NCBI RefSeq assembly: GCF_029714365.1
Contig: NZ_CP121660.1
Coordinates: 310,001-374,000 of the forward strand
DNA length: 64,000 nucleotides
Direction: 5' to 3'
From: Sinorhizobium terangae
Lineage (GTDB): Bacteria > Pseudomonadota > Alphaproteobacteria > Rhizobiales > Rhizobiaceae
The position numbers and the translations under genes are program-made. Under the pieces are notes generated by a model that saw only the letters and a program-made list of their open reading frames with translations, had not been told where the DNA came from and did no database searches. Below, one piece after another: positions 5,460 through 60,287 of this stretch; the first letter of the stretch is position 1, and each line of letters begins with the position of its first letter.

Positions 5460-6191
5460 ATGGACGAACCCCTTCGCGATTCGCGTACCCTGGCCATCCA
5501 GCTTCGTGACCGCATCGCCGATCTCATCCGCGGCGAGGGCCTCAAGCCGGGCGACAAGCTGCCGACCGAGGCGCAGCTGACCCAGCGCTTCAAGATCTCC
5601 CGGCCTGCGCTGCGCGAGGCGCTGAAGCTGCTGGAACAGGATGGGCTCATCTACGTCGAGCACGGGCGTGGCCGCTTCGTCTCGGCGATCTCCGCCGTCC
5701 ACGTCGACCGGCCTATTACGGTCTTCGAGAGCGTGACCGACATGGCGCATCATTACGGCTACAGGCCGCTCAACAAGGTGCTTTCGATCGCTGAGGAAAC
5801 TCCTGACAAGCATGTGGCCGCACAGCTTCAACTGACGGCGACAGACCGGGTCATCCGCATCGAGCGGCTGCGGCTGCAGGGCGAGGAGCCGATCCTCTAT
5901 TGCCTCGATTACGTGCCGCGCAGCATCATTCCGGCCAGGCTCTATGACATCGACTGGACCGGCTCGCTGCTTTCCCTGCTGGAGGAACACAAGAACCGGC
6001 CGCGCATGTCGGCTGCAACGGTCTCTGCCGTCATGCTGCCCGATGAGGTTGTCCAGCGCAATGACCTGCGCGATTTCGGACCGGCGCTGCTCATCACCGA
6101 GACCTGCTTCAATGCTGCCGGCACGCCAGTGAACTACGCGATCGACTATCACCGCGGCAGCCATTTCTCCTTCAGCCTCGTGCGCAAGTGA
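5460..6191 (+). CDS. GntR-family transcriptional regulator with UTRA ligand domain (HutC subfamily)
   Basis: The 243-residue protein has an N-terminal winged helix-turn-helix (about residues 10-75, including LPTEAQLTQRFKISRPALRE) and a C-terminal UTRA effector domain (about 95-235), the HutC/FrlR architecture. The UTRA domain normally binds a small phosphorylated sugar or similar inducer. An ATG at 5388 is in frame, but the one at 5460 is preceded by GGAGG at a 6-bp spacing. The gene is divergent from the SIS-kinase pair, which suggests it is their local repressor responding to a pathway intermediate. Confidence 0.9.
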   Translation: MDEPLRDSRTLAIQLRDRIADLIRGEGLKPGDKLPTEAQLTQRFKISRPALREALKLLEQDGLIYVEHGRGRFVSAISAVHVDRPITVFESVTDMAHHYGYRPLNKVLSIAEETPDKHVAAQLQLTATDRVIRIERLRLQGEEPILYCLDYVPRSIIPARLYDIDWTGSLLSLLEEHKNRPRMSAATVSAVMLPDEVVQRNDLRDFGPALLITETCFNAAGTPVNYAIDYHRGSHFSFSLVRK

Positions 6192-47421: not shown

Positions 47422-49200
47422 TTACTCCGCGGCTTGTTTCTTGAGGGTCTGGGCGGACAACATCGTTCGGGCGGCGCGCTTCGCCCGGATCGCTTCGAGA
47501 TGTTCGGGAGCGGGGCTGGCCCCGCCTTCGTAGGCTTCCAGGAAGTCCAGGAGTTCCTCGCGGTAGGCGTAGTAGTCGGGGTGCGACAGGAGTTCCTTGC
47601 GCGAGCGAGGCCGCGGCAGGTTCACCTCCATGATGTTGCCGATCCGCGCATTGGGGCCGTTAGACATCATCACCACCCGATCGGCGAGCAGGATCGCCTC
47701 GTCGACGTCATGCGTGACGCAGATCGCCGTCACCTGGGTCCGCTTCCACACGTCCATCAGGACTTCCTGCAGCTCCCAGCGGGTGAGGCTGTCGAGCATG
47801 CCGAAAGGCTCGTCGAGCAGCAGCAGCTTCGGTGACAGCGCGAACGCCCGGGCGATGCCGACGCGCTGCTTCATGCCGTTCGAGAGGTCCGCGGCAAGCC
47901 GGTGCATCGCATCGCCGAGGCCGACACGTTGGAGGTAATACTCGACGACGTCGCGGCGCTCGGCGGGCGTCGCGTCCGGATAGACCCGGTCGACGCCGAG
48001 CGCGACGTTTTCGCGGGCGGTCAGCCAGGGAAGCAGCGATGGAGCCTGGAAAACCACCGCCCGATCCGGACCGGCGCCGGAAATTTCCCGTCCATCGAGG
48101 ATGATGCCGCCGGACGAGATCGGATTGAGGCCGGCCATCATCGACAGAACGGTCGACTTGCCGCATCCCGAATGGCCGATGATCGAGATGAACTCGCCTC
48201 TATTCATCTTGAGGTTGAAGCCATCGACCACTGTCAACGCACCTTTCGGCGTCGGATAGACCTTTCGGACCTCGAAAAACTCGACGTAGCTCTTTTCGAT
48301 CGCGGAGCGCGCCTTTCGCGCATAGGCGTCGGGCAGCTTGGTGCCGGCAAGTTTCTGGGTGATCGGCACGACGTTGGGCAAGGCGACGGCGCCGCTTTCT
48401 GCGGTGGTTCGTCCGGCGCCCAGATCCATCAGATATTCGGTGACGGCGCCGCGAAGACGGATGAACTCGGCGTTCGAGTTCATTTCCGCACGGTCGCGCG
48501 GTCGCGGCAGGTTCACCTCGAAGCTGGGACCGAGCGAGGCATTCGGACCGGGCGTCAAGGGGACAATCCTGTCGGCAAGCAGGATCGCCTCATCGACGTC
48601 GTTGGTGATGAGGATGATGGTCTTCTTTTCCTTCGACGAGATCTCGGCGAATTCGTCCTGAAGCTTCGAGCGGGTGAGCGCGTCGAGTGCCGAGAGCGGC
48701 TCGTCGAGCAGGAGCACGTCGGGCTGCATCGCGAGCGCTCTTGCCACGGCCACGCGCTGGCGCATGCCGCCCGAGAGCTCCGCAGGCCGGCGCTCTGTCG
48801 CGTGGGCGAGACCGACCATCTCGATATAGTACTGAACGAGGCTCGCCCTTTCGGCTTTGCTCTTGGCGGAATGCACCGCATCGACGGCAAGGGCGACATT
48901 GGCGCGGACCGACAGCCAGGGCATCAGCGAATAGGATTGGAAGACGACGCCGCGCTCCGGCCCCGGACCCGACACTTCCTTGTCGCGGAAGAGCACCGCA
49001 CCGCGATCCGGCATCGTCAGGCCGGCGAGGAGGGAAATCAGCGTCGATTTGCCTGAGCCGGAAAAACCGACGATGGCAATGAACTCGCCTTCCTCGACCT
49101 TGAGGTTGACGCCTGAAAGGACGTCATTGCGCGATTTTCCCTCGCCGAAGGACTTCGAGACATCGCTCAGTTGAAGAATTGTCCCGCCAAGAACGGTCAT
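47422..49200 (-). CDS. Nitrate ABC transporter ATPase, two cassettes fused
   Basis: The 592-residue protein contains two complete ATP-binding cassettes. The first (about residues 10-260) has Walker [25 protein letters not shown] and [11 protein letters not shown]; the second (about 310-550) has [24 protein letters not shown] and [11 protein letters not shown]. The linker carries no solute-binding domain, unlike cyanobacterial NrtC. One polypeptide thus supplies both ATPases for the permease NrtB. Start chosen at the ATG preceded by TAGGAGG. Confidence 0.92.
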
Positions 49201-49210
49201 GGGGCGCCTC

Positions 49211-50284
49211 CTACCGGTTCGACGAGAAGGTGAAGGCGGACTGGAGAGCATACATGACCCGGTCCAGAACGAAGCCGATGATACCGATCGTCAGCACCGC
49301 AACCATGATGCGGGCGAGCGAGTCTGAAGAGCCGTTCTGGAATTCGTCCCAGACGAACTTTCCGAGACCCGGATTCTGGGCGAGCATTTCGGCCGCGATC
49401 AGCACCATCCAGCCCACACCGAGCGAGAGTCTCAGCCCGGTGAAGATCAACGGAAGGGCGGAAGGCAAAACCAGCTTGCGGATCGTCGTCGCGGTCGAAA
49501 GCTGAAGCACCTTGCCGACGTTCACCAGGTCCTTGTCGATCGAAGCCACGCCGAGCGCCGTATTGATCAGCGTCGGCCACAGCGAACAGAGGGTCACGGT
49601 AACGGCCGAGATCACCAGTGACTTCGGCAGCAGGCTCGACGGATCGACATAAAGCGCCGAGACGACCATTGTTACGATCGGCAGCCATGCCAGCGGCGAG
49701 ACGGGCTTGAAGATCTGGATCAGCGGGTTGATGGCACCGTTGATCGTCTTGGAGAGACCGGAGGCTATCCCGAGCGGCACGGCGACCAGCGTCGCGATCA
49801 CGAAGCCGAGCCCGACCGTCATCAGCGAGGTCGTGATCTGGTCGATATAGGTCGGCTTGCCGGTGAACACGCGATGCTTCACCTGATCGGCCTTGCCATC
49901 GGCAACGAGCTTGGCGTTGCGTTCGTCCTGCCGGGCATAGAAAGCCGTTGCCTTGCTCCGTTCCACGAAATGATCCTGCAGAAGCACGTTGGCCTGGCCG
50001 AAGACGGCCGCAGGCCCGGGAATGGCGCCAAGCGAGGTTTGAACCTTCGGCGCAAGAAAGCCCCAAAGCGCGAGGAAGCACAGGATGCCCGCGAGCGGCA
50101 CCAGCAGCACCTTGCGAATCTCGGACATCTGCTCGGCGACATTGTCGCCGGCTGCCATGCGCAGGATCGGGGTCACCCAGCCGAGGCCAAGCGCGTTGAG
50201 CCAGCCGGCGGCTTTATTGATCCGCTGAAACAGACGCTCTCGTCGTGCGAGTTTCGGGTCAGCCACGGTGATCGCTTGAGTCAT
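49211..50284 (-). CDS. nrtB: Nitrate ABC transporter permease
   Basis: The 357-residue inner-membrane protein has a long N-terminal region (to about residue 150) with one hydrophobic segment, then five further spans and the EAA loop ([27 protein letters not shown]). This is the NrtB layout. Two NrtB molecules probably form the channel with the fused ATPase. It is separated by 10 bp from the ATPase gene and 73 bp from nrtA. Confidence 0.93.
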
Positions 50285-50357
50285 CGATTTGTCTCATCTG
50301 TTGAAAGTTTGGTAGAGAACAGGCGGCCTCGGTGTTTTCGCGCCGCCAGCCCGATGT

Positions 50358-51755
50358 TCAGCCGCCAACGACATCCGACCCGGATATCGTCTGTTCGTTC
50401 TTCAGCCCGATCTTGAGGGAGTCGATGTAGGCGTTCGGCGCCTTGGCATCGAAGGTGACGCCGTCGATGAAGTCGGAGGTCGGCGCCTTGTAGCCGTCGG
50501 TGCCGAAGGGGAAGTCGCCCTTGTCCGCCTTGCCCTCTTCGACCAGCATCCCTGCCGCTTTCATGTAGATGTCGGGCAGATAGACGGACTTCGCCGTTTC
50601 CGCGTACCAGGCGTCGTCCTTGTGCTCGGCGATCTGACCCCAGCGGCGCATCTGCGTCAGGTACCAGATGGCATCGGAGTAGAACGGATAGGTCGCGTTG
50701 TGGCGGAAGAAGACGTTGAAGTCGGGAACGTCGCGCTTGTCGCCCCGCTCGTATTCGAACGTGCCGGTCATCGAGTTGGCGATCACGTCCGCGTCGGCGC
50801 CGACATATTCGCTGCGCGACAGGATTTCGACTGCCTCGGCCCTGTTGGCGTTGTTGTTTTCGTCCAGCCATTTGGCGGCGCGGATGAGCGCCTTTGTCAG
50901 CGCAAGGGTCGTGTTCGGATACTTCTCGGTGAATTCCTTGGTCAGCCCGAAGACCTTCTCCGGATTGTTCTTCCAGATTTCGTAGTCGGTCACCACCGGA
51001 ACGCCGATGCCCTTGAAGACGGCGGCCTGGTTCCAGGGCTCGCCGACGCTGTAGCCGACAATCGTGCCGGCTTCGAGCGTGGCGGGCATCTGTGGCGGCG
51101 GCGTCACGGAAAGAAGCGCGTCCGCCCTGATCTGTCCCGTGACGTTTTCCGGCGAATAGAAACCCGGATGAATGCCGCCGGCGGCCAGCCAGTAACGAAG
51201 CTCGTAGTTGTGAGTGGAAACCGGAAACACCATGCCGAGATTGAATGGCTTGCCCTCGGCCTTGAATGCATCGACGACGGGCTTCAGCGCGTCGGCCTTG
51301 ATGGGGTGGGCCGGCTTGCCGTCCGCGCCGAGCGGAATATTCTCCTTCATCATCGCCCAGACGTCATTCGAAACGGTGATGCCGTTGCCGTTGAGGTCCA
51401 TGGAGAAGGGCGTCACGATATGCGCCTTGGTGCCGAAGCCGATGGTGGCGGCGAGCGGCTGACCGGCGAGCATATGCGCGCCGTCCAGTTCGCCTGTTAT
51501 CACGCGGTCGAGCAGCACCTTCCAGTTGGCCTGCGGTTCGAGCGTGACGAACAGCCCCTCTTCCTCGAAGAAGCCCTTCTCATAGGCGATCGCGAGAGGC
51601 GCCATGTCGGTGAGCTTTATGAAACCGAGCTTGAGTTCGTCTTTCTCGGGCACGAGCATCTCGGCAGACGCGAAAGAGCCGGCGCCGACATAGAGTGCGG
51701 CCGCCCAGGCGGCGAGCGAACACTTCGCGAATTTTCCGGTGGAAGGCCTCGTCAT
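50358..51755 (-). CDS. nrtA: Periplasmic nitrate-binding protein
   Basis: The 465-residue product starts with a signal peptide ([20 protein letters not shown], cleavage after SAEM region near residue 33) and continues as an NrtA/NasS-type nitrate/nitrite-binding protein ([58 protein letters not shown]). It is homologous to the cytoplasmic sensor at 52095, which has no signal. The start is the ATG after AGGAGAAAAAC; the longer open frame includes the terminator leader and is rejected. It is the first gene after the ANTAR leader. Confidence 0.92.
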
Positions 51756-51810
51756 GTTTTTCTCCTGTGTGCCGGCGATGGGAGGCTCGCCTGCGGTTGC
51801 GACGTTCGGG

Positions 51811-51884
51811 GCAAATAAAAAGGCTGCCAAACCGCAGTCCGACGCTCTGCCTCGTTCAGAGCGCGTTCCCGGTTTGGCAGCCTT
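51811..51884 (-). terminator. Intrinsic terminator in the nitrate operon leader
   Basis: On the minus strand the arm AAGGCTGCCAAACCG (51884-51870) pairs exactly with CGGTTTGGCAGCCTT (51834-51820), enclosing a second hairpin (GCTCTG…CAGAGC), and is followed by a T-rich tract (TTTTTATTTG). It lies 64 bp before nrtA, so it would stop the operon unless antitermination occurs. Its 5' arm overlaps the second hexaloop hairpin. Confidence 0.85.
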
Positions 51885-51909
51885 GCCTTCTGCGCCCTTC
51901 ATTGGACGC
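51876..51909 (-). ncRNA. ANTAR-type two-hexaloop antiterminator RNA
   Basis: Minus-strand RNA: first hairpin GCGUCC-AAUGAA-GGGCGC (51909-51892, including one G-U pair), 4-nt linker AGAA, second hairpin GGC-AAGGCU-GCC (51887-51876). Both loops are six nucleotides with A at position 1 and G at position 4, the known requirement for binding by ANTAR proteins. The second hairpin overlaps the 5' arm of the terminator, so NasT binding would prevent terminator formation. The second stem has only three pairs, which is a weakness. Confidence 0.75.
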
Positions 51910-51951
51910 CGATTATTTCGAGCGGACCCCAAGGGCCCTACGCTCTCCACG

Positions 51952-51969
51952 ATGCAGGAACCGTGCCAG
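51952..51969 (-). promoter_or_regulatory. Sigma-54 (-24/-12) promoter of the nitrate operon
   Basis: Minus strand TGGCACGGTTCCTGCA (51968-51953) has the GG-N10-GC spacing and near-consensus elements of RpoN promoters. Transcription would start about 51940, shortly before the hexaloop hairpins. This indicates control by NtrC or a similar activator under nitrogen limitation. Confidence 0.75.
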
Positions 51970-52094
51970 TTTCGTGGACGGACGGATTCTCATGATTTTT
52001 CGGTGATTGGGCCCAAAGCGCAGTGCGCTGGTGAGAGGCGATTAAGCTGTCTCTTGAATAAATTTTGCGCAGTGCACAATAATCGAGCAGGTCG

Positions 52095-53315
52095 TCAGCG
52101 CTGGCTCGCCAGGTAGCCCTCGAGGCGGTCCGGGTCGAAGATCCGGCCGTCGAAAAAGCCGTCGGGACCGAGAATAAGCCCTTTTTCCGAAGCGCCGACC
52201 GGTGCCGCCACGGTCAGGGCGCCCTCGACCTTCATGTTGGCGCCGGGCATCGGCGCAGCGATCGGCTTCAGCGCCTGTCTGTAGATGTCCGGCCGATAGG
52301 TGTCACGCGCACGCTCGGCAAGTGCTGCCGAATGCGGCGTGTGTCCCCAGCGCACCATTTGGCTGTAGAACCAGAGGGCGTGGCTCTGCCAGGGAAAGGT
52401 CGCTCCCTTGGCATGCGGGACAAAGAATTCGGGAATGTCGCCGGTCGCGCCGTCGCCGAGCGTCAGTCGGCCCGTGAGGATCGGCATCAGCATCTTGCGC
52501 GGAAGGTCGAGATAGGCAGGGCTGCTCATCAGCGCCGCGAGTTCTTCGTGATTTGCGCTTTCGCCGCACCACATCGAGCTTCGGTAGAGCGCGCGCAGCA
52601 GCGCGTTCAGCGCGGGGCGGTTCTCGGAGGCGAACCGGGCTGACACACCGAGCACCTTTTCAGGGCTCAGCCGCCAGATCGACGCCTTGGTGGTGACAAT
52701 GCGTCCGGCATGGCGTGCGACCGCGACGCTGTTCCACGGTTCGCCGACGCAGAACCCGTCGATCGCGCCGGTCGACAGTGCATCGGCCATCAGCGGCGGG
52801 GGAACGACGACAATCTCGACGTGGCTTTCCGGATCGATGCCGCAGCCCGCGAGCCAATAGCGCAACTCGTAGTTATGGCCGGAGAAGGGGTGGACGACGG
52901 CAAAACGCAGCGGCGGTTCGCCGGCTGCGCGGCGGCGTTCGACGACGCGCCTCAAGGCTGCGCCGTTGGTGCCCGGGTCGGTGCCGGGCCTGGCGCCCTC
53001 AGCGACCATGCCTTCCCAGAGACCGCGTGACACCGTCACCGCATTGCCGCCAAGTCCGAGCGCAAAGGGCGCCACGAGGTCCAGCGACAGGGGCGTGAGG
53101 CCGAGATTGGCTGCAATCGGCATTGGCGCCAGCATGTGGGCCGCCTGGAAATGGCCGACGGCGATCCGATCGCGGATATTGGCCCAGGAGGTTTCCCGGA
53201 CGAGCTGCACCGTGAGGCCCTCGTCGGCGACGAAGCCCTTTTCGCTGGCGGCAATGAGCACGGCGCTGTCGAAGAGCGGCATGAAGCCGAGGGTGATGTC
53301 GGCGGTGGCAGCCAT
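52095..53315 (-). CDS. nasS: Nitrate/nitrite sensor protein
   Basis: The 406-residue protein is of the NrtA/NasS family ([51 protein letters not shown]) but lacks a signal peptide, consistent with the cytoplasmic sensor NasS. In NasS-NasT systems it holds NasT inactive until it binds nitrate or nitrite. Its ATG follows the nasT stop directly (TAAATG). No signal peptide and the neighbour nasT distinguish it from a transporter subunit. Confidence 0.9.
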   Translation of the reverse strand: MAATADITLGFMPLFDSAVLIAASEKGFVADEGLTVQLVRETSWANIRDRIAVGHFQAAHMLAPMPIAANLGLTPLSLDLVAPFALGLGGNAVTVSRGLWEGMVAEGARPGTDPGTNGAALRRVVERRRAAGEPPLRFAVVHPFSGHNYELRYWLAGCGIDPESHVEIVVVPPPLMADALSTGAIDGFCVGEPWNSVAVARHAGRIVTTKASIWRLSPEKVLGVSARFASENRPALNALLRALYRSSMWCGESANHEELAALMSSPAYLDLPRKMLMPILTGRLTLGDGATGDIPEFFVPHAKGATFPWQSHALWFYSQMVRWGHTPHSAALAERARDTYRPDIYRQALKPIAAPMPGANMKVEGALTVAAPVGASEKGLILGPDGFFDGRIFDPDRLEGYLASQR

Positions 53316-53909
53316 TTACAGGTCCTCCAGCAATCCTGCCGCGAGCACCAGGCTCTGTGCGATTTCGGCTATCTTGCGGTTCTGGTTCATCGCGGTCGTG
53401 CGCAGGAGCTTGTAGGCCTCTTCTTCGCTGATGCCGCGCGACTTCATCAGGATGCCCTTGGCCCGGTCGATCACCTTGCGGTCTGCAAGCTCGCTGCGCG
53501 CTTCCGCCAACTCACGCTCCATGCGTGAAAAGGCGTTGAAACGGCTGATCGCCATATCGAGGATCGACTTCACGCGTTCCTGCCGCAGTCCGTCGACGAC
53601 ATAGGCCGAGACGCCGGCGTCGATTGCCGCTTCGATCATGCTGCTGTCGGATCGGTCAACGAACATGGCGATCGGGCGCTTTACCGAGCGGGAGAGCTGG
53701 AACATGCTCTCCAGCAAATCGCGGTTGGGATTTTCGAGATCGATGACGATCACGTCCGGTTGCAACCGTTCGATCACCCGCCCGACGCCATGGACATCGT
53801 GCACGATGCTCACGCGGCTGTGGCCGGCATCGCGCAAGCCTTCCTCGATGATCGAGGCGCGGATGGCGTTCTCGTCAATCACAAGAATGATCAGGTCGCG
53901 GCGGGTCAT
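53316..53909 (-). CDS. nasT: ANTAR-domain antitermination regulator
   Basis: The 197-residue protein has an N-terminal receiver-like domain (LIILVIDENAIRASIIEEGL; VIVIDLENPN with Asp near residue 53-57) and a C-terminal ANTAR RNA-binding domain (about 130-190, with KVIDRAKGILMKSRGISEEEAYKLLRTTAM). In the NasT family it binds paired hexaloop hairpins to suppress a terminator; such a leader exists before nrtA. It forms an operon with nasS with no intergenic space. Confidence 0.92.
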   Translation of the reverse strand: MTRRDLIILVIDENAIRASIIEEGLRDAGHSRVSIVHDVHGVGRVIERLQPDVIVIDLENPNRDLLESMFQLSRSVKRPIAMFVDRSDSSMIEAAIDAGVSAYVVDGLRQERVKSILDMAISRFNAFSRMERELAEARSELADRKVIDRAKGILMKSRGISEEEAYKLLRTTAMNQNRKIAEIAQSLVLAAGLLEDL

Positions 53910-55235: not shown

Positions 55236-55472
55236 TCAGCAGCGGCCCAGGCTGCCCAGTGCCATCAGGTCGACTGTCGGAAGAACGTTCTTGTCGGTCA
55301 TGTATTCGACTTCCTGGAGCAGGGAGGCCAAAGCCAGTTCCAGGCAATACTGCACGCCTTCGACGTTCAATGTCTTGGCGGAGTCTCGCGCGTAGCTGAC
55401 GAGGCGGGCAAGGGCCAGAAGTTCCTTCTCCCTGTCTTCCACGTCGGTAGGTAACTTGATGGATTGCTTCAT
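55236..55472 (-). CDS. Small conserved-looking protein of unknown function (78 aa)
   Basis: The 78-residue protein is Leu/Glu-rich and predicted to be mostly helical (DREKELLALARLVSYARDSA; LELALASLLQEVEYM), ending in a Cys. It has a good ribosome-binding site (GGGGAAAA) and an isolated promoter region. I do not recognise the family. Upstream, three GCGTGAC copies at 55529, 55549 and 55559 lie at spacings of 20 and 10 bp and may be a regulator site. Confidence 0.65.
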   Translation of the reverse strand: MKQSIKLPTDVEDREKELLALARLVSYARDSAKTLNVEGVQYCLELALASLLQEVEYMTDKNVLPTVDLMALGSLGRC

Positions 55473-55593: not shown

Positions 55594-56313
55594 CTACGTC
55601 TCCGGTTGATTAAGCAAAACCTTCCACATAGTTGTCGAATTGAACGCCCAGCCGGGTCTTTCGCCGCGCCGTTCGTCCGGCTGAGCCCGGACCGCGTCGA
55701 AAAGCGCGAGGGCATCGGCGCGCTTCTGGTCAACCATCTCCTGTTGCAGCCTTGCCGCCAACGCGACGCGATCGCCATCCGCTGGAAGGTCTGCGTCGGC
55801 AACGATCGCTGCCCATGTGCGCCGCTTGTAGAATATCTGCCCGGCTGCCGCCTCGATCCGTGCTGCATCCGCTGCGGTGATCGAGCCACCCTGCCTGAGG
55901 CGTGCAAGCGTCGCGCGCACATTGACCAGCGGGACCGTGAGCGGCGCATAGCCGAGCTCGGCGGGAGCGTGAAGCAGCGCCACATCCGAGTCGTCCGCGA
56001 GCTCGCCCGCGGCATATTGGCGGTATATTTCCCCGATCCCGACCATTCCGAAGCGCGCGCATTCGGCGGCGCGCAAGGCGCCCATGCTCGCCGCACCAAA
56101 GACCTGTACGCCTTCTGAAAGGGCGAGCAGGATCTCCTTGTGCCAGACAGGAGCCACATGTTCGAAACTACCGTCGACAAGGCCGATGATCGTCGCGCCG
56201 GCGCGTACGGCGCGCAAGATGTCTCCCTGCATCGCCGGCGGCCGGACCGTGAAGGCCGCACCGGCGCGTTCGGGCGCATCGGGGACGGTCGGGCCGACGA
56301 AGACGATCTTCAC
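55594..56313 (-). CDS. tfuA: TfuA-like protein
   Basis: The 239-residue protein shows the TfuA core: IVFVGPTVP at the start, then RPPAMQGDILRAV, ATIIGLVDGSFE, VFGAASMGALRAAE and GEIYRQY. TfuA was first linked to trifolitoxin production in Rhizobium and partners YcaO enzymes to make thioamides, probably by handling sulfur. GTG start at 56313 overlaps the YcaO stop by 4 bp (GTGA), a sign of coupling and joint function. It is the last gene of the putative RiPP operon. Confidence 0.9.
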   Translation of the reverse strand: MKIVFVGPTVPDAPERAGAAFTVRPPAMQGDILRAVRAGATIIGLVDGSFEHVAPVWHKEILLALSEGVQVFGAASMGALRAAECARFGMVGIGEIYRQYAAGELADDSDVALLHAPAELGYAPLTVPLVNVRATLARLRQGGSITAADAARIEAAAGQIFYKRRTWAAIVADADLPADGDRVALAARLQQEMVDQKRADALALFDAVRAQPDERRGERPGWAFNSTTMWKVLLNQPET

Positions 56314-57503
56314 GCCGCCTCCAGTGCCCAGGAGAGCGCCCGCGTGCCGAAGCGGCGCTTGCGCTCGCCTTCCGGGTTTTCCAGCTCCGGAACGAACACT
56401 TTGACAACCCCAAAGGGCAGGTCGTCGCCAAGCAACGGCACGGAGACGACCGGACCGATGCCGGCATTGCGCAGCCGTTGCAGGACGAAAGACAAGAGCG
56501 CATCCGGTCCCCCCTCTTGTCCGGCGTGGACGCGTGTCCGCTCTTGCGGCACAGCCTCGAACAGTTTTTGCGTCTGCTGCGGCAAAGAGCGAACGAATGT
56601 CTCTGGATAGACGTCGTCGCGCGCGCCGCTGATATAGGTGAGCCTCGATTGGGCCGCCTCGGTCACGGCGCGGATTGCCGCTCTCACTGCATTCGGATGT
56701 GCGCCGTGTCCAACCGTGACATGGTGGAAAAGCGGCGCCTTCGCGGTGAGGATGTCTTTCCCGGCTATGACGGCGGTGAAGCAGGGTATGCCGACATCGC
56801 TGGTGATGTCGAAAAGGCGCAGCTCCAGGTCGGCCGCGGCAATCTTCCCGGCCATCGCAGCAAGCACCGCATCGCCGAGCGCCTGGGGTAAAACGCAGCT
56901 TCGAAGCCTCGAGGCTATTGGCGTGATGCGCCACAGCACCTCCGCATCGCGTTCGATCCGTTCGAGGAGCCCATGCAATACCGCTTCGGTTTCACTGTTG
57001 CCGGAGGCGAGACCATCGGAGGATTGCCAGTACCGGCAGTTCTCCACCGTCCGGTCGAGCAGGATGGCCTCCAGCGGAACCCATGTCGGCGCTCCGCCGT
57101 CGAGGTTGCGGCCGAGAACCCAGCGGATAGGCTCGTTGTCGGCAAGGTCCGGCTGGCCGCTCGCGATCAACCCCGGCAGAGACAGGGCTTGATTGCCTTC
57201 GGCCAACAGGTCGCTGCGGCTCGCAACTCTCGCCGGCACGCGCGGCGCGCATGCGACGGCGCGCTCGATCGCCTCCATGGCCGCCGAAACTTTTGCTTCG
57301 ATGTCCGTTATGCCCTTGCCCTGATTGATGACCAGGGACTTTGAGTTCGGAGACACGGCATTCCAGACGGGTATGCCGATGCAATCCAGTCCGGTCAGGC
57401 GCGCGAGCCGCGTGATGCCGAACTCCGGCAAAAGCGGCTCGATACGGCCGAAGGTCGTTTCGGCGGGGCAGAGTCGATCGGAATAGCGAATTGAGCTGGA
57501 CAT
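56310..57503 (-). CDS. YcaO-domain ATP-dependent peptide-modifying enzyme
   Basis: The 397-residue protein has YcaO features: the N-terminal part with GITRLARLTGLDCIGIPVW, the ATP-binding Glu-containing helices (AAMEAIERAVAC and LHGLLERIERDAEVL) and the C-terminal FGVVKVFVPELE region. YcaO proteins activate backbone amides with ATP, giving azolines, or thioamides when TfuA is present. The TfuA gene overlaps it and a small-peptide gene precedes it by 63 bp, pointing to a thioamide-forming RiPP pathway. Confidence 0.92.
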   Translation of the reverse strand: MSSSIRYSDRLCPAETTFGRIEPLLPEFGITRLARLTGLDCIGIPVWNAVSPNSKSLVINQGKGITDIEAKVSAAMEAIERAVACAPRVPARVASRSDLLAEGNQALSLPGLIASGQPDLADNEPIRWVLGRNLDGGAPTWVPLEAILLDRTVENCRYWQSSDGLASGNSETEAVLHGLLERIERDAEVLWRITPIASRLRSCVLPQALGDAVLAAMAGKIAAADLELRLFDITSDVGIPCFTAVIAGKDILTAKAPLFHHVTVGHGAHPNAVRAAIRAVTEAAQSRLTYISGARDDVYPETFVRSLPQQTQKLFEAVPQERTRVHAGQEGGPDALLSFVLQRLRNAGIGPVVSVPLLGDDLPFGVVKVFVPELENPEGERKRRFGTRALSWALEAA

Positions 57504-57517
57504 GGTTTTGAAGAGAC

Positions 57518-57555
57518 GTGCGGGCGGAACCCCCTTGGTCTACCGCCCGTCGCAC
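57518..57555 (-). terminator. Intercistronic hairpin between precursor and YcaO genes
   Basis: On the minus strand GTGC-GAC-GGGCGG pairs with CCGCCCGCAC across a 15-nt loop: ten pairs and a 3-nt bulge. There is no long T-tract, so partial termination or 3'-end protection is expected. It could make the small peptide gene more abundant than the enzyme genes, as is usual for peptide precursors. Confidence 0.45.
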
Positions 57556-57566
57556 ATGGCCGGCGG

Positions 57567-57785
57567 CTAGCCGTCCATGTAGCCACCGAAGACGGCGTCG
57601 GCGGAACTTGCCGCAGCTGCCAGATTGACTGTTTTGACAACCGTGGACCCGGACTTGCGCAATGTGTCGGCGTCGGCCAGCGCGCCCTGCTTTGGCGGAT
57701 CGATCCTGGTGACGGTCCCCGCCTTGAGGTCCGCAAGCCACAAATGATCCTCTCCCGCAATGCCGAAAACAACAACTTCAGCCAT
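57567..57785 (-). CDS. Candidate RiPP precursor peptide (72 aa)
   Basis: The 72-residue peptide has an ordered-looking N-terminal half (about residues 1-30: VVVFGIAGEDHLWLADLKAG) and a low-complexity C-terminal part of Ala, Ser and Gly ending FGGYMDG. It contains no Cys. Its position directly before YcaO-TfuA and after the regulator, its size and its leader/core-like split fit a ribosomal precursor, with thioamidation of backbone bonds in the C-terminus. GAGGGG lies about 10 bp before the ATG. Without product data the core boundary is unknown. Confidence 0.7.
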   Translation of the reverse strand: MAEVVVFGIAGEDHLWLADLKAGTVTRIDPPKQGALADADTLRKSGSTVVKTVNLAAAASSADAVFGGYMDG

Positions 57786-57823
57786 TCATTTCATCCCCTC
57801 TTGCTCTCGCGCGGAATTGCGCC

Positions 57824-59692
57824 TCAAAAGCCTGCCTTCTTCAAGCCCTCGCGGTAATGCTCCCTCTGCCACTCCTCGCGGAAGGGCACGATCGCCATCC
57901 ATCTGTCGAGATCGAAATCCGGGTGGACATCGAATGTCTTGCGCACGAACTGGCGCGCCTTTCTGCGGTCGCCGAGCATGCCCCAGCTTGCCGCCGATAG
58001 TCGGTCGGCGGGCGCTCTGTCCCGCATCCGATCAATGTAACCGAGGGCCTCTTCGTATTGGCCAAGGGAATAGCTGGCACCAGCCGCCGCCCAAAAATAG
58101 GTGTCGGGTGAGATCGGATTGAGATCGATCGCCGTCTTGATCTTTTGAAGTCCCTCCGCTGGGCGTGACGCCTGCACGAGGGTGTCGCCGTAGCTGGCGA
58201 GGACATTGGCGTAGTGCGGGCTCAACGCTTCCGCCCTGTCGAGGAACTCAACGCTCTCGTCGAATTGGCGCATGTAGAGCTTGACCACGCCGAGTTCCAG
58301 ATAGCCGGAGGCGAGTGTTTCGTCGGCGACCACGGCCTCCCGGGCATGTCGCTCGGCCAGCCTCAGCAGCTCACGATCATTGCGTGCTGTCAGCAGCCAT
58401 TCGAAGAAATAGGTCCGGGCCAGTCCGCCCATCGCGGGTGCGAAACCCGCCTGTTGGCCCAGTGCCTGCCTGAAGCTCTTGCGGGCGCGGCGGATCTCGG
58501 GAAGGTTGAGGTCCTTCAGGTGTCGCTGGCCGAGAAGATAGCTTCGATAGGAATCCGCGTGACCCTCATAGGAGCCACGAACGGCCTCGTTCTGTTCAAT
58601 CTGACTGGCAATAGCCGCAGCGATCCGATGCGCAATGCCCCTGCGCGACTGCATCAGCCCATCGCCGATGAGATTGAACCGGTCGGCCCAGATGACCTCG
58701 TCGTTGGCGAAGAAGATCAGCTGGGCAAAGAGGCTCTGGCGGTCACCCTCGTCGGTCAATCGTGTGTCGAGGATATAGCTGATGGCATGCCGTTCGTAGG
58801 TGTTGGCCTTGTCGGCCTGAAGGCCGATCTGCGCCGCGGTATAGGGCGCGATGACACTGACGGAGCGAAGGGCGCATAGGCCGATCGTCACGTCCTCGAT
58901 GAGCGAACTTGCAAAGATCGCCGCGGTGCTGTCTCCACGCTCGGAGTTGGGCGGCAGCAGCACGAGCCGCGGCGGCTTTCTCTGGTGAGAGTCGTCCCGG
59001 GGGAGGATCTCGACGGGCGCGGACGGTTGGTTGCCGATGATCGGCACCGACCGGCTGACGCTGTCGAAGATGACCTGCGCATCATGGTGCCGTCCATCCG
59101 ACTCCAACGCAGCCTTCAAGACTTTGCGGACTTCCTCGTCCGACGGGCTGCGTTCGAGCAATCGCATTGCCGCCGACTTCAGCAGTTCGCGATGCTTGCC
59201 CGCGGCGGCGGGCGCCGCGGCAAGCAGGCTCTCCCTGAGCAGGGACATATGCGTCTCGCGCTGGCGGTTGATCCAGGCATCAAGCGCCCTCCCGTGCGAT
59301 TTCGCGTCCTTCAGGAAGTCGTCGCGCAGCACAGTGGCAATGCGGCAGAAGCGAGCGACGGCGTCGTCGCCGTCGTCGGTCACGGCATCGAGATCGCTCG
59401 TCAAGCTTCCGGGATTGAGCAGGATCGACGACTGCGAAAAGGTCAGGAAGGTTCGACCGAGCTCCATCTGTTGCGCGGTGATGCGGGAAATTGTCTTGCG
59501 CAGGTTGACATAGGCCTGGCTCGACTCGACCCCGTCCCAGAGCAGCCTGGCGATTTCCGCCCGGGATTGTTCGCGACAGCCGTTGGCAATCGCGAGACAC
59601 AGGATGAGCAGACCCTTCTCGGGAAAGGCGACTTCGCGCCCCGCTTCATTTAGTAGGCGCAATCGTCCCAGCGTCTGCAACCTATAGGTCAT
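57824..59692 (-). CDS. SARP-like transcriptional regulator with C-terminal TPR region
   Basis: The 622-residue protein starts with a winged-helix DNA-binding domain (LQTLGRLRLLNEAGREVAFP…, about residues 5-70) followed by a BTAD-like helical part (about 100-215). A TolB-N/adenylate-cyclase-associated-type middle domain follows (SSLIEDVTIGLCALRSVSVIAPY, about 262-360). The C-terminal third has TPR-like repeats (about 380-600). No adenylate cyclase catalytic domain is present. Spaced 38 bp before the precursor gene on the same strand, it probably controls the YcaO-TfuA operon. Confidence 0.82.
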   Translation of the reverse strand: MTYRLQTLGRLRLLNEAGREVAFPEKGLLILCLAIANGCREQSRAEIARLLWDGVESSQAYVNLRKTISRITAQQMELGRTFLTFSQSSILLNPGSLTSDLDAVTDDGDDAVARFCRIATVLRDDFLKDAKSHGRALDAWINRQRETHMSLLRESLLAAAPAAAGKHRELLKSAAMRLLERSPSDEEVRKVLKAALESDGRHHDAQVIFDSVSRSVPIIGNQPSAPVEILPRDDSHQRKPPRLVLLPPNSERGDSTAAIFASSLIEDVTIGLCALRSVSVIAPYTAAQIGLQADKANTYERHAISYILDTRLTDEGDRQSLFAQLIFFANDEVIWADRFNLIGDGLMQSRRGIAHRIAAAIASQIEQNEAVRGSYEGHADSYRSYLLGQRHLKDLNLPEIRRARKSFRQALGQQAGFAPAMGGLARTYFFEWLLTARNDRELLRLAERHAREAVVADETLASGYLELGVVKLYMRQFDESVEFLDRAEALSPHYANVLASYGDTLVQASRPAEGLQKIKTAIDLNPISPDTYFWAAAGASYSLGQYEEALGYIDRMRDRAPADRLSAASWGMLGDRRKARQFVRKTFDVHPDFDLDRWMAIVPFREEWQREHYREGLKKAGF

Positions 59693-59724: not shown

Positions 59725-59823
59725 ACTGCATGTTTTCTTAAATCGCGACCGATTTAAGAAAACATGCAGCAATTCAAAGCGCTACAGCGCTCTTTGCGCG
59801 TCTGATAAGACGCGCAGCGCCGT
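59725..59823. repeat. RIME-like intergenic palindromic element, full copy D
   Basis: About 99 bp with two palindromes: TGCATGTTTTCTTAAATC opposite GATTTAAGAAAACATGCA, then GCGCGTCTGATAAGACGCGC. Link segment GCAATTCAAAGCGCTACAGC matches the copies at 9931 and 17993. It separates the XRE gene from the SARP gene. Confidence 0.75.
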
Positions 59824-59828
59824 GGTCT

Positions 59829-60287
59829 CTAGCCGTGCAGAGGCTCGGTGCGACGCGCCCCGGAGATCGCGCTCGTCGACTCCATATCCGGTGCCTGGGC
59901 CATGGCGGCAACGAGCGAGATGATCTTCTTGCGCAACACCGGATCGGCGATCTTCAGGAAAGCCCTGTTGAGCGCGATCCCTTCCTTCGAGGCCACGAAG
60001 GAAGAAATCTCGTTCGATTCATGCATGTCCCCGGCGCTGTCCCGTCCCGACGGCTTGTCGTCTTCGCGTTGGAAGAAGAAGCTCGGGTGGACACCCAGGA
60101 TATCGGCGATCGCCTGCAGGCGGCTCGCGCCGATGCGGTTTGTGCCCTTTTCGTATTTCTGTACCTGCTGGAACGTGATGCCCAAGCCGTCGGCCAGCTT
60201 CTCCTGGCTCAGCCCGACCATCAGTCTGCGCATTCGGACACGAGAACCGACAAAGGTATCTATCGGGTTGGGATCCTTTTTATTCAT
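59829..60287 (-). CDS. XRE-family transcriptional regulator
   Basis: The 152-residue protein has a Cro/CI-type helix-turn-helix (about residues 12-70: RMRRLMVGLSQEKLADGLGITFQQVQKYEKGTNRI), then a flexible Asp/Ser-rich part and a C-terminal helical segment. The same layout is found in PhrR/PraR-like rhizobial regulators; that name would be a guess. The ATG at 60287 is preceded by GAGGAGA. Target genes are not evident. Confidence 0.88.
   Translation of the reverse strand: MNKKDPNPIDTFVGSRVRMRRLMVGLSQEKLADGLGITFQQVQKYEKGTNRIGASRLQAIADILGVHPSFFFQREDDKPSGRDSAGDMHESNEISSFVASKEGIALNRAFLKIADPVLRKKIISLVAAMAQAPDMESTSAISGARRTEPLHG

Follow-up and report, generated by a model that had tools for sequence, protein, structure and literature searches.

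A gene for a 72-residue, Cys-free peptide lies in a stretch of 64,000 nucleotides from Sinorhizobium terangae (contig NZ_CP121660.1, positions 310,001 to 374,000; hereafter the window), and our comparison of related loci places it in a six-gene cassette. As far as can be read from sequence, the order of this cassette, consisting of XRE repressor, SARP/TPR regulator, precursor, YcaO, TfuA, and CinS-like protein, is conserved across root-nodule bacteria. On balance, we favor the reading that the cassette makes a thioamide-containing ribosomally synthesized and post-translationally modified peptide (RiPP) under the control of a PraR/CinS-like switch, with the peptide as a possible ligand of the regulator. 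An earlier note on this DNA had described a four-gene operon in tight order on one strand, and these four genes are real and were all found on the minus strand, with the YcaO and TfuA reading frames sharing 4 bp and the Cys-free peptide gene lying directly upstream of ycaO. Two further cassette genes had been missed, namely the 78-residue open reading frame (ORF) downstream of tfuA and the XRE gene upstream of the regulator gene. The earlier observation was correct and larger than first described, and its interpretation as a whole is partly supported. The features of the window that are relevant here are:

59829..60287, minus strand: first cassette gene, encoding an XRE/HTH_3 regulator (PF01381) of the PraR-like repressor type
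57824..59692, minus strand: SARP-like/TPR regulator, 622 residues, read as winged helix plus BTAD-like helices, alpha/beta domain, and C-terminal TPR superhelix
57567..57785, minus strand: precursor peptide, 72 residues, Cys-free, leader at about residues 1–60
57570..57593, minus strand: predicted core VFGGYMDG, residues 65–72, with the conserved Gly as residue 68
56310..57503, minus strand: YcaO, 397 residues (PF02624), predicted backbone-amide activation
55594..56313, minus strand: TfuA, 239 residues, GTG start (PF07812), predicted sulfur-delivery partner
55236..55472, minus strand: helical protein of 78 residues, distant CinS anti-repressor homolog by profile–profile match
59726..59769, no strand assigned: palindrome of 44 nt in the gap between the XRE and regulator genes, each arm 20 nt long

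The small ORF is a real gene under purifying selection, because its mean ratio of nonsynonymous to synonymous substitution rates (dN/dS) is 0.117 (28 pairs from eight Sinorhizobium/Ensifer sequences), and because a homologous small ORF was found upstream of YcaO in 28 of the 38 named loci that a scan with the YcaO protein returned. The other mean dN/dS values were 0.101 for the 78-residue ORF (28 pairs), 0.140 for the regulator (16 pairs), and 0.160 and 0.175 for ycaO and tfuA, respectively (21 pairs each, eight Sinorhizobium/Ensifer loci). A precursor profile, built from an alignment of 20 peptides and run on 297 genomes of the host family with the host genome included, gave 59 matches in 50 genomes, and for 50 of these matches a TfuA domain follows downstream on the same strand at a distance of 1.3–2.1 kb. 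This is the linkage to YcaO–TfuA elsewhere on which the earlier note had staked its view of the peptide beforehand, and together with the core repeats described below it marks the peptide as a precursor. One of the nine matches away from TfuA is a chance match (L110 in genome G027, left out with 17 bits inside a frame of 1473 residues), and the other eight are treated below among the splits of the cassette. The relatives that had been thought possible do exist as a conserved peptide family in rhizobia and their kin: in a plasmid collection, 56 of 72,556 records contained a relative of the peptide (tblastn, E up to 0.01), all from rhizobial genera and near kin. The precursor is also carried by locus L063 from Pleomorphomonas, which we take to belong to a family other than that of the host. 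Among 385 genomes of the class, with only four of the same order and thus a thin nearby sample, the profile matched the host genome alone, and a protein search with the 72-residue query found a single homolog, as limited by the exact-word search. Neither Pfam nor NCBIfam has a family for the peptide; at E up to 0.1, four of 62 members was the most that any family matched.

Comparison of the sequences shows the anatomy that would be expected of a RiPP precursor, namely an N-terminal leader that is conserved and a core that varies and in several lineages is repeated. Conservation extends over the first 60 residues; in an alignment of 62 rows M1 and D19 are invariant, and G8, G11, T24, V25, G46, V53, and A56, as well as G68 of the core, are at least 90% conserved. 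The C-terminus is variable around the motif G-x-phi-[DE], which is found in 57 of 69 distinct sequences. The motif was picked after looking at the sequences, and with this reservation its presence in 56 of 68 distinct precursors compares with a mean of 3.6 and a maximum of 10 in 500 shuffles. Core repeats differ by lineage, with three GLHE units in L122, three GGYMD units in L132, four FSGKL units in L135, and a repeated unit of 13 residues in the precursors of L065 and L113; the unit of L132 is that of the single core in the window. The best of five AlphaFold2 models of the precursor had a mean predicted local distance difference test score (pLDDT) of 90.5 (range 65.5–90.5), and predicts a three-stranded meander, a helix at residues 35–44, a short helix at residues 62–66, and no regular structure for the last six residues; neither Foldseek nor VIA-align found a significant match of this model to a solved fold. 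We also considered the leader as a built-in RiPP recognition element (RRE) and dropped this idea: TbiB1 and CteB chains, which we take to be RREs, ranked high in Foldseek with E-values of 0.6 and worse, VIA-align listed no RRE, and hhalign against 16 PqqD sequences gave a probability of 0.6%. Some loci contain more than one precursor. The Phyllobacterium-type loci L065/L111, L112, L113, and L114 have two tandem precursors of different type, with the 13-residue repeats in one of them (L065, L113), and the profile scan detected neither XRE nor 78-residue genes there. Rhizobium rhizogenes plasmid pC5.7c (L181, NZ_MK318969) carries two tandem cassettes, the first with a tfuA that appears as two pieces, and the second with ycaO–tfuA and a precursor-like ORF containing three repeats of about 24 residues.

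The enzymes of the window are clear members of their families: PF02624 spans its whole profile in YcaO with 206.9 bits (cut-off 25.7), and PF07812 matches TfuA with 154.4 bits (cut-off 30). The nearest NCBIfam models of both are those of the pair responsible for McrA-glycine thioamidation (TIGR03266 for YcaO, NF033432 for TfuA). Among solved structures, the sequence relatives of YcaO comprise five distinct sequences, with MJ1094 (6pe3) at the top and 6ci7 among them, and TfuA has one relative, the TfuA domain protein 6xp8. From this linkage, anatomy, and enzyme similarity, the 72-residue precursor is very probably the substrate of YcaO–TfuA, and a thioamide is the likely modification. The window core VFGGYMDG contains no Cys, Ser, or Thr, and a thioamide therefore fits better than an azoline. 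Gly68 is a candidate for the modified site because it is conserved, and we consider this assignment about evenly balanced. The host genome (6.63 Mb on three contigs, the window being on contig 2) has three YcaO and three TfuA matches. Its two other YcaO–TfuA pairs (G000:C2:1910303-1911247, L120, and G000:C1:2187670-2188605, L121) are not accompanied by this precursor family, and in L120 an ORF of 99 residues (5807-6106) starts upstream of the YcaO frame.

The extent of the cassette was determined with per-gene profiles that were run over 99 sequence stretches, including the window. After removal of the four duplicates L111, L149, L155, and L161, which were left out of the locus counts, all six genes occurred together in 58 loci, with tfuA being divergent in one of them (L105). 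The genes are closely spaced, as the median gaps are 22 nt between regulator and precursor, 24 nt between precursor and ycaO, -4 nt between ycaO and tfuA, and 103 nt between tfuA and the 78-residue gene. For the co-occurrence counts, a gene was scored as present anywhere in the fetched stretch, at cut-offs that we had set. Among 74 regulator-bearing loci, the XRE gene was present in 64 and the 78-residue gene in 63. In 87 non-duplicate loci that contain at least one of the components, regulator and precursor were both present in 72 and both absent from 13, two had the regulator only, and none had the precursor only. The corresponding numbers for the XRE and 78-residue genes were 69 with both, 12 with neither, five with XRE only, and one with the 78-residue gene only. 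By this comparison, the regulator and the peptide appear as one co-inherited pair, and the repressor and the CinS-like protein as another.

Natural splits of the cassette point in the same direction. In four genomes, the regulator–precursor pair lies apart from ycaO–tfuA (L106–L109, in L108 also with the XRE and 78-residue genes); a linked precursor is found at another place in three of them (G270, G009, G003), and in the fourth, G029, ycaO–tfuA lies elsewhere without the regulator–precursor pair (L149). Conversely, eight named genomes have a ycaO–tfuA locus that lacks regulator and precursor (L044, L047, L048, L050, L056, L059, L060, L071), and all eight contain a precursor elsewhere in the genome. 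In seven of these eight, the precursor is found beside a regulator with the other four genes missing (L194–L200), and in the eighth, G701, it has the same coordinates as L106. Four other genomes were also searched for the precursor: there was none in that of L066, which is at a contig edge, none in that of L070, one in that of L051, and Rhizobium johnstonii 3841 (L054) has two precursors, the second again in a regulator–precursor pair (L201). A Fisher test of second precursor copies (8/8 versus 3/44, p 2e-7) was not used, as the two samples were drawn differently and the genomes are related. From the natural splits it follows that enzymes and substrate can live apart yet stay in the same genome, and that the regulator–peptide pair behaves as a unit. 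The regulator had been regarded as the switch of the operon, and it looks like more than that, since the regulator–peptide unit also occurs without the enzymes.

The two outer genes of the cassette resemble a known regulatory pair of Rhizobium, in which CinS is described as an anti-repressor of PraR, and PraR controls root attachment and nodulation competitiveness (PMC4149787). The XRE protein of the window is 54% identical to its best-scoring match in R. johnstonii 3841 (G710:C1:423312-423731), which by sequence and position is probably PraR. It also shares 52% and 57% identity with two further XRE proteins encoded there, the 57% one being that of the cassette itself, and for this reason we regard the window protein, at the level of sequence, as being of the PraR type rather than PraR itself. 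A search of the host genome and three Rhizobium genomes, R. johnstonii 3841 among them, with the profile of the 78-residue protein gave several weak matches in addition to the cassette copy. In all three Rhizobium genomes, one such weak match lies directly downstream of a LuxI-type synthase gene. The small gene was present at four of the 11 synthase places (L216–L219, all four of one type), and in L218 it shares 4 nt with the synthase frame. This small protein is probably CinS, named for its place behind the synthase; the CinS and PraR names used for these places are probable assignments from context and not from annotation. In hhalign, the 78-residue family matched the CinS-type family with an E-value of 3.4e-5 and a score of 27.1, with 60 column shuffles reaching 14.7 at most, which is consistent with distant homology only. 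A second family (L206–L208) matches the 78-residue profile (E 4e-4 to 0.002 in the genome search, 2.6e-5 profile–profile) and did not match the CinS-type profile (E 0.51); in genomes G710 and G711 its gene is the convergent neighbor of a PraR-like XRE gene, and its product also ends in His. The last residue of the 78-residue family was Cys, His, Asn, or Gln in all 60 distinct sequences, as compared with 8% at the preceding 19 positions, and this terminal residue is perhaps a metal ligand or a degradation tag. A role of the 78-residue protein as immunity protein was considered and rejected: in the 87 loci it tracks the XRE gene most, then ycaO, and less the regulator and precursor, and it resembles CinS. 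Gene numbers beginning with RL362–RL366 or RL051 do not appear in the published PraR regulon (PMC4149787), and as these numbers were estimated from position, this is uninformative.

For the regulator, a Pfam survey of 46 members (25 of 28 matched families listed) gave, among the matches listed, TPR_2 in 44 members, BTAD in 10, and Trans_reg_C in six. Up to E 0.1, neither BTAD nor Trans_reg_C was matched by the window regulator itself, whose listed matches were to TPR-type families only. The combination of BTAD and Trans_reg_C with TPRs in the family points to a SARP-like protein. In the AlphaFold2 model (pLDDT 83.6, predicted TM-score 0.50), we read the predicted secondary structure as an N-terminal winged-helix-like part followed by BTAD-like helices, an alpha/beta domain, and a TPR superhelix. 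The top Foldseek matches of this model were TPR superhelices, and a CadC sensor domain came at rank 14 (E 3.4e-6).

Several results weigh against our reading of the cassette or limit what the counts can carry. Of the 112 TfuA places in the sampled family, 45 have a linked precursor of this kind and 67 have none, and therefore most TfuA loci of that family do something else. Both enzymes are below the McrA-type equivalog cut-offs, with 194.6 of 365 bits for YcaO and 178.6 of 235.2 bits for TfuA, and the core motif is missing from 12 of the 69 distinct precursors. Because the loci share ancestry and were chosen via YcaO, TfuA, or the precursor, the co-occurrence counts are not independent, nor are p-values probabilities of independent events; likewise, the eight of eight pair-less genomes with a precursor represent at most two lineages. 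L070 and L151 have a regulator without a recognized precursor, and in L070 there is an ORF of 136 residues with a similar start. The CinS-type match spans 42 columns with 72% probability, the whole-genome E-values of the matches behind the synthases are only 0.07–0.37, and other equally strong matches of the 78-residue profile have no known meaning. Finally, the three congeners G257, G045, and G138 have a regulator–precursor–ycaO row without tfuA (L102–L104), with the 78-residue gene directly next in two of them and about 4 kb away in G138, and a row on pSymB of S. meliloti Ak57 also lacks tfuA (L180; upstream of this row, at 1024-1842, the annotation gives an AAC(3)-VI family aminoglycoside N-acetyltransferase). 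In the same three congeners, a cassette-type TfuA (339–345 bits) is encoded beside an XRE gene elsewhere (L142, L144, L146), and in G202 (L105) the divergent tfuA adjoins the XRE gene. Judged from these three congeners with tfuA split from ycaO and from the eight pair-less genomes, the YcaO–TfuA enzymes can apparently act in trans. Moreover, the YcaO of E. coli, a species without TfuA homolog, is reported to thioamidate folded uL16 (PMC13063428), and rows without tfuA therefore need not be inactive.

Gene content, co-inheritance, precursor anatomy, and homologies are what the comparison shows, and the biochemical steps that follow are predicted from them. The PraR-like XRE protein would repress the operon, and the CinS-like product of the last gene would lift this repression, resulting in positive feedback. 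YcaO and TfuA would recognize the leader and install the thioamide in the core, with the conserved Gly as the most likely site, after which house peptidases could free the core, as has been proposed for the thiovarsolins. The TPR part of the regulator may then read the mature peptide and its SARP-like part may act on DNA, so that the peptide would become an autoinducing signal. The packaging of the peptide with its own regulators suggests a signal that is sensed inside the cell; the role of the peptide as ligand of the SARP/TPR regulator is tentative, and we give it somewhat less than even weight. More speculative still is a Gram-negative system of peptide communication, in which a thioamidated ribosomal peptide would serve a SARP/TPR regulator as its ligand, either diffusible or intracellular. 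Such a system would be wired to a PraR-like repressor and a CinS-like anti-repressor, with the peptide-modifying pair replacing the N-acyl homoserine lactone (AHL) synthase, and with more than one peptide–regulator pair being served by one YcaO–TfuA set.

The strongest alternative is an exported antibacterial RiPP that acts as a competition factor in the manner of trifolitoxin, with the SARP/TPR protein merely being the pathway activator. SARP-type proteins commonly activate biosynthetic clusters. The rhizobial RiPPs phazolicin and trifolitoxin are indeed described as anti-rhizobial (PMC9670871), and the differences of the core sequences between species would agree with such a function. However, the earlier note had already seen no exporter or protease nearby, and this now extends to the flanks of 54 loci (near-identical loci removed; flanks of a few kb, open frames of at least 100 residues), in which no exporter, protease, or immunity gene stands out among the 14 clusters listed. 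The widest of these clusters are ABC ATPases in 14 of the 54 loci, of unchecked distance and role, and the next spans five loci. Furthermore, the regulator stays with the peptide gene even when the enzymes are elsewhere, and the last gene resembles an anti-repressor. We regard an exported antibacterial as the less likely reading. Clearly less probable is that YcaO–TfuA acts on another cellular protein and that the 72-residue product is an ordinary small regulatory protein. The modification of the folded housekeeping protein uL16 by a YcaO (PMC13063428), the predicted fold of the 72-residue product, and the persistence of ycaO–tfuA without an adjacent precursor in eight loci speak for it; on the other side, all eight of those genomes hold a precursor elsewhere, and the C-terminal core repetition is typical of precursor peptides and not expected of a regulatory protein. 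YcaO enzymes are versatile, and one could also think of an azoline or amidine on the peptide, which we find the most improbable of these alternatives. An amidine-containing ribosomal peptide is known from the literature (PMC8442711), but backbone thioamidation usually involves TfuA as the partner (PMC8120280), and the window core offers no Cys, Ser, or Thr for an azoline.

Among the loci, the nearest named relative is from Sinorhizobium terangae (L034, 97% identity in YcaO). The genes that neighbor the cassette in the window, for an HtrA-type protease, an ANTAR regulator, and an NMT1-like protein, were found again in the seven nearest loci and in no others of the 78 scanned. Next to the cassette, at 49197-53909, lie genes for two NMT1-like proteins and an ANTAR response regulator together with a permease-like ORF, an arrangement that resembles a common ABC uptake cluster. 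The palindrome at 59726-59769, with perfect 20-nt arms, was considered as a conserved operator and dropped, as among 30 loci tested the same palindrome was found elsewhere only in L034. There are three copies in the genome when up to three mismatches are allowed, the two others being on contig 1 with two mismatches each, and the palindrome looks like a dispersed repeat.

More than 500 YcaO–TfuA biosynthetic gene clusters in Rhizobium and 797 precursor families overall were reported by Malit and colleagues, at a time (2021) when the known YcaO–TfuA products came from Actinobacteria (PMC8120280); the supplementary tables of that study may already contain members of our family. In the open-licence PMC literature, judged by title and the start of the abstract, we found no account of this precursor family or circuit. 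A bounded precursor family with a predicted core now makes one rhizobial YcaO–TfuA cluster directly testable, and if the peptide is the ligand of the neighboring regulator, plant symbionts would have a thioamide peptide signal tied to the PraR type of repressor. The closest biosynthetic parallel is the thiovarsolin locus of Streptomyces varsoviensis (varA-varY-varT), which shares the minimal set of precursor, YcaO, and TfuA, reported to suffice for the product, as well as the repeated core and the lack of a dedicated protease; there, too, copy number varies between species, from a non-repeating form to five repeats (PMC6511847). The thiovarsolins differ in their actinobacterial origin and in having an APR core instead of G-x-phi-[DE], and the cited sections of that report name no PraR-, SARP/TPR-, or CinS-like set (PMC6511847). 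McrA-glycine thioamidation in methanogens is similar in that it provides the best NCBIfam matches of both enzymes and a Gly as likely site, and differs in that the enzymes described here are below both equivalog cut-offs and the substrate would be a small dedicated peptide. The trifolitoxin (tfx) locus of Rhizobium has a rhizobial host and a TfuA-type protein in common with the cassette, and it includes export and resistance functions. Its product is an azol(in)e-modified anti-rhizobial peptide (PMC9670871). On the regulatory side, the cinI-cinS/PraR branch of Rhizobium leguminosarum quorum sensing likewise combines a PraR-like XRE repressor with a small CinS-like protein behind a signal-making gene (PMC4149787), but in the cassette the signal maker would be a peptide-modifying pair and not an AHL synthase, and repressor and anti-repressor are encoded in the same gene row. 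RRNPP quorum sensing, described for Firmicutes (Bacillota), also has a TPR-containing regulator beside a small peptide gene (PMC10075063), whereas the cassette would combine a SARP-like N-terminus with a putatively modified peptide in Alphaproteobacteria. In comparison with these systems, the enzymatic kind, a thioamidated RiPP, is known, and what is new is the precursor family together with its unusual built-in regulatory circuit.

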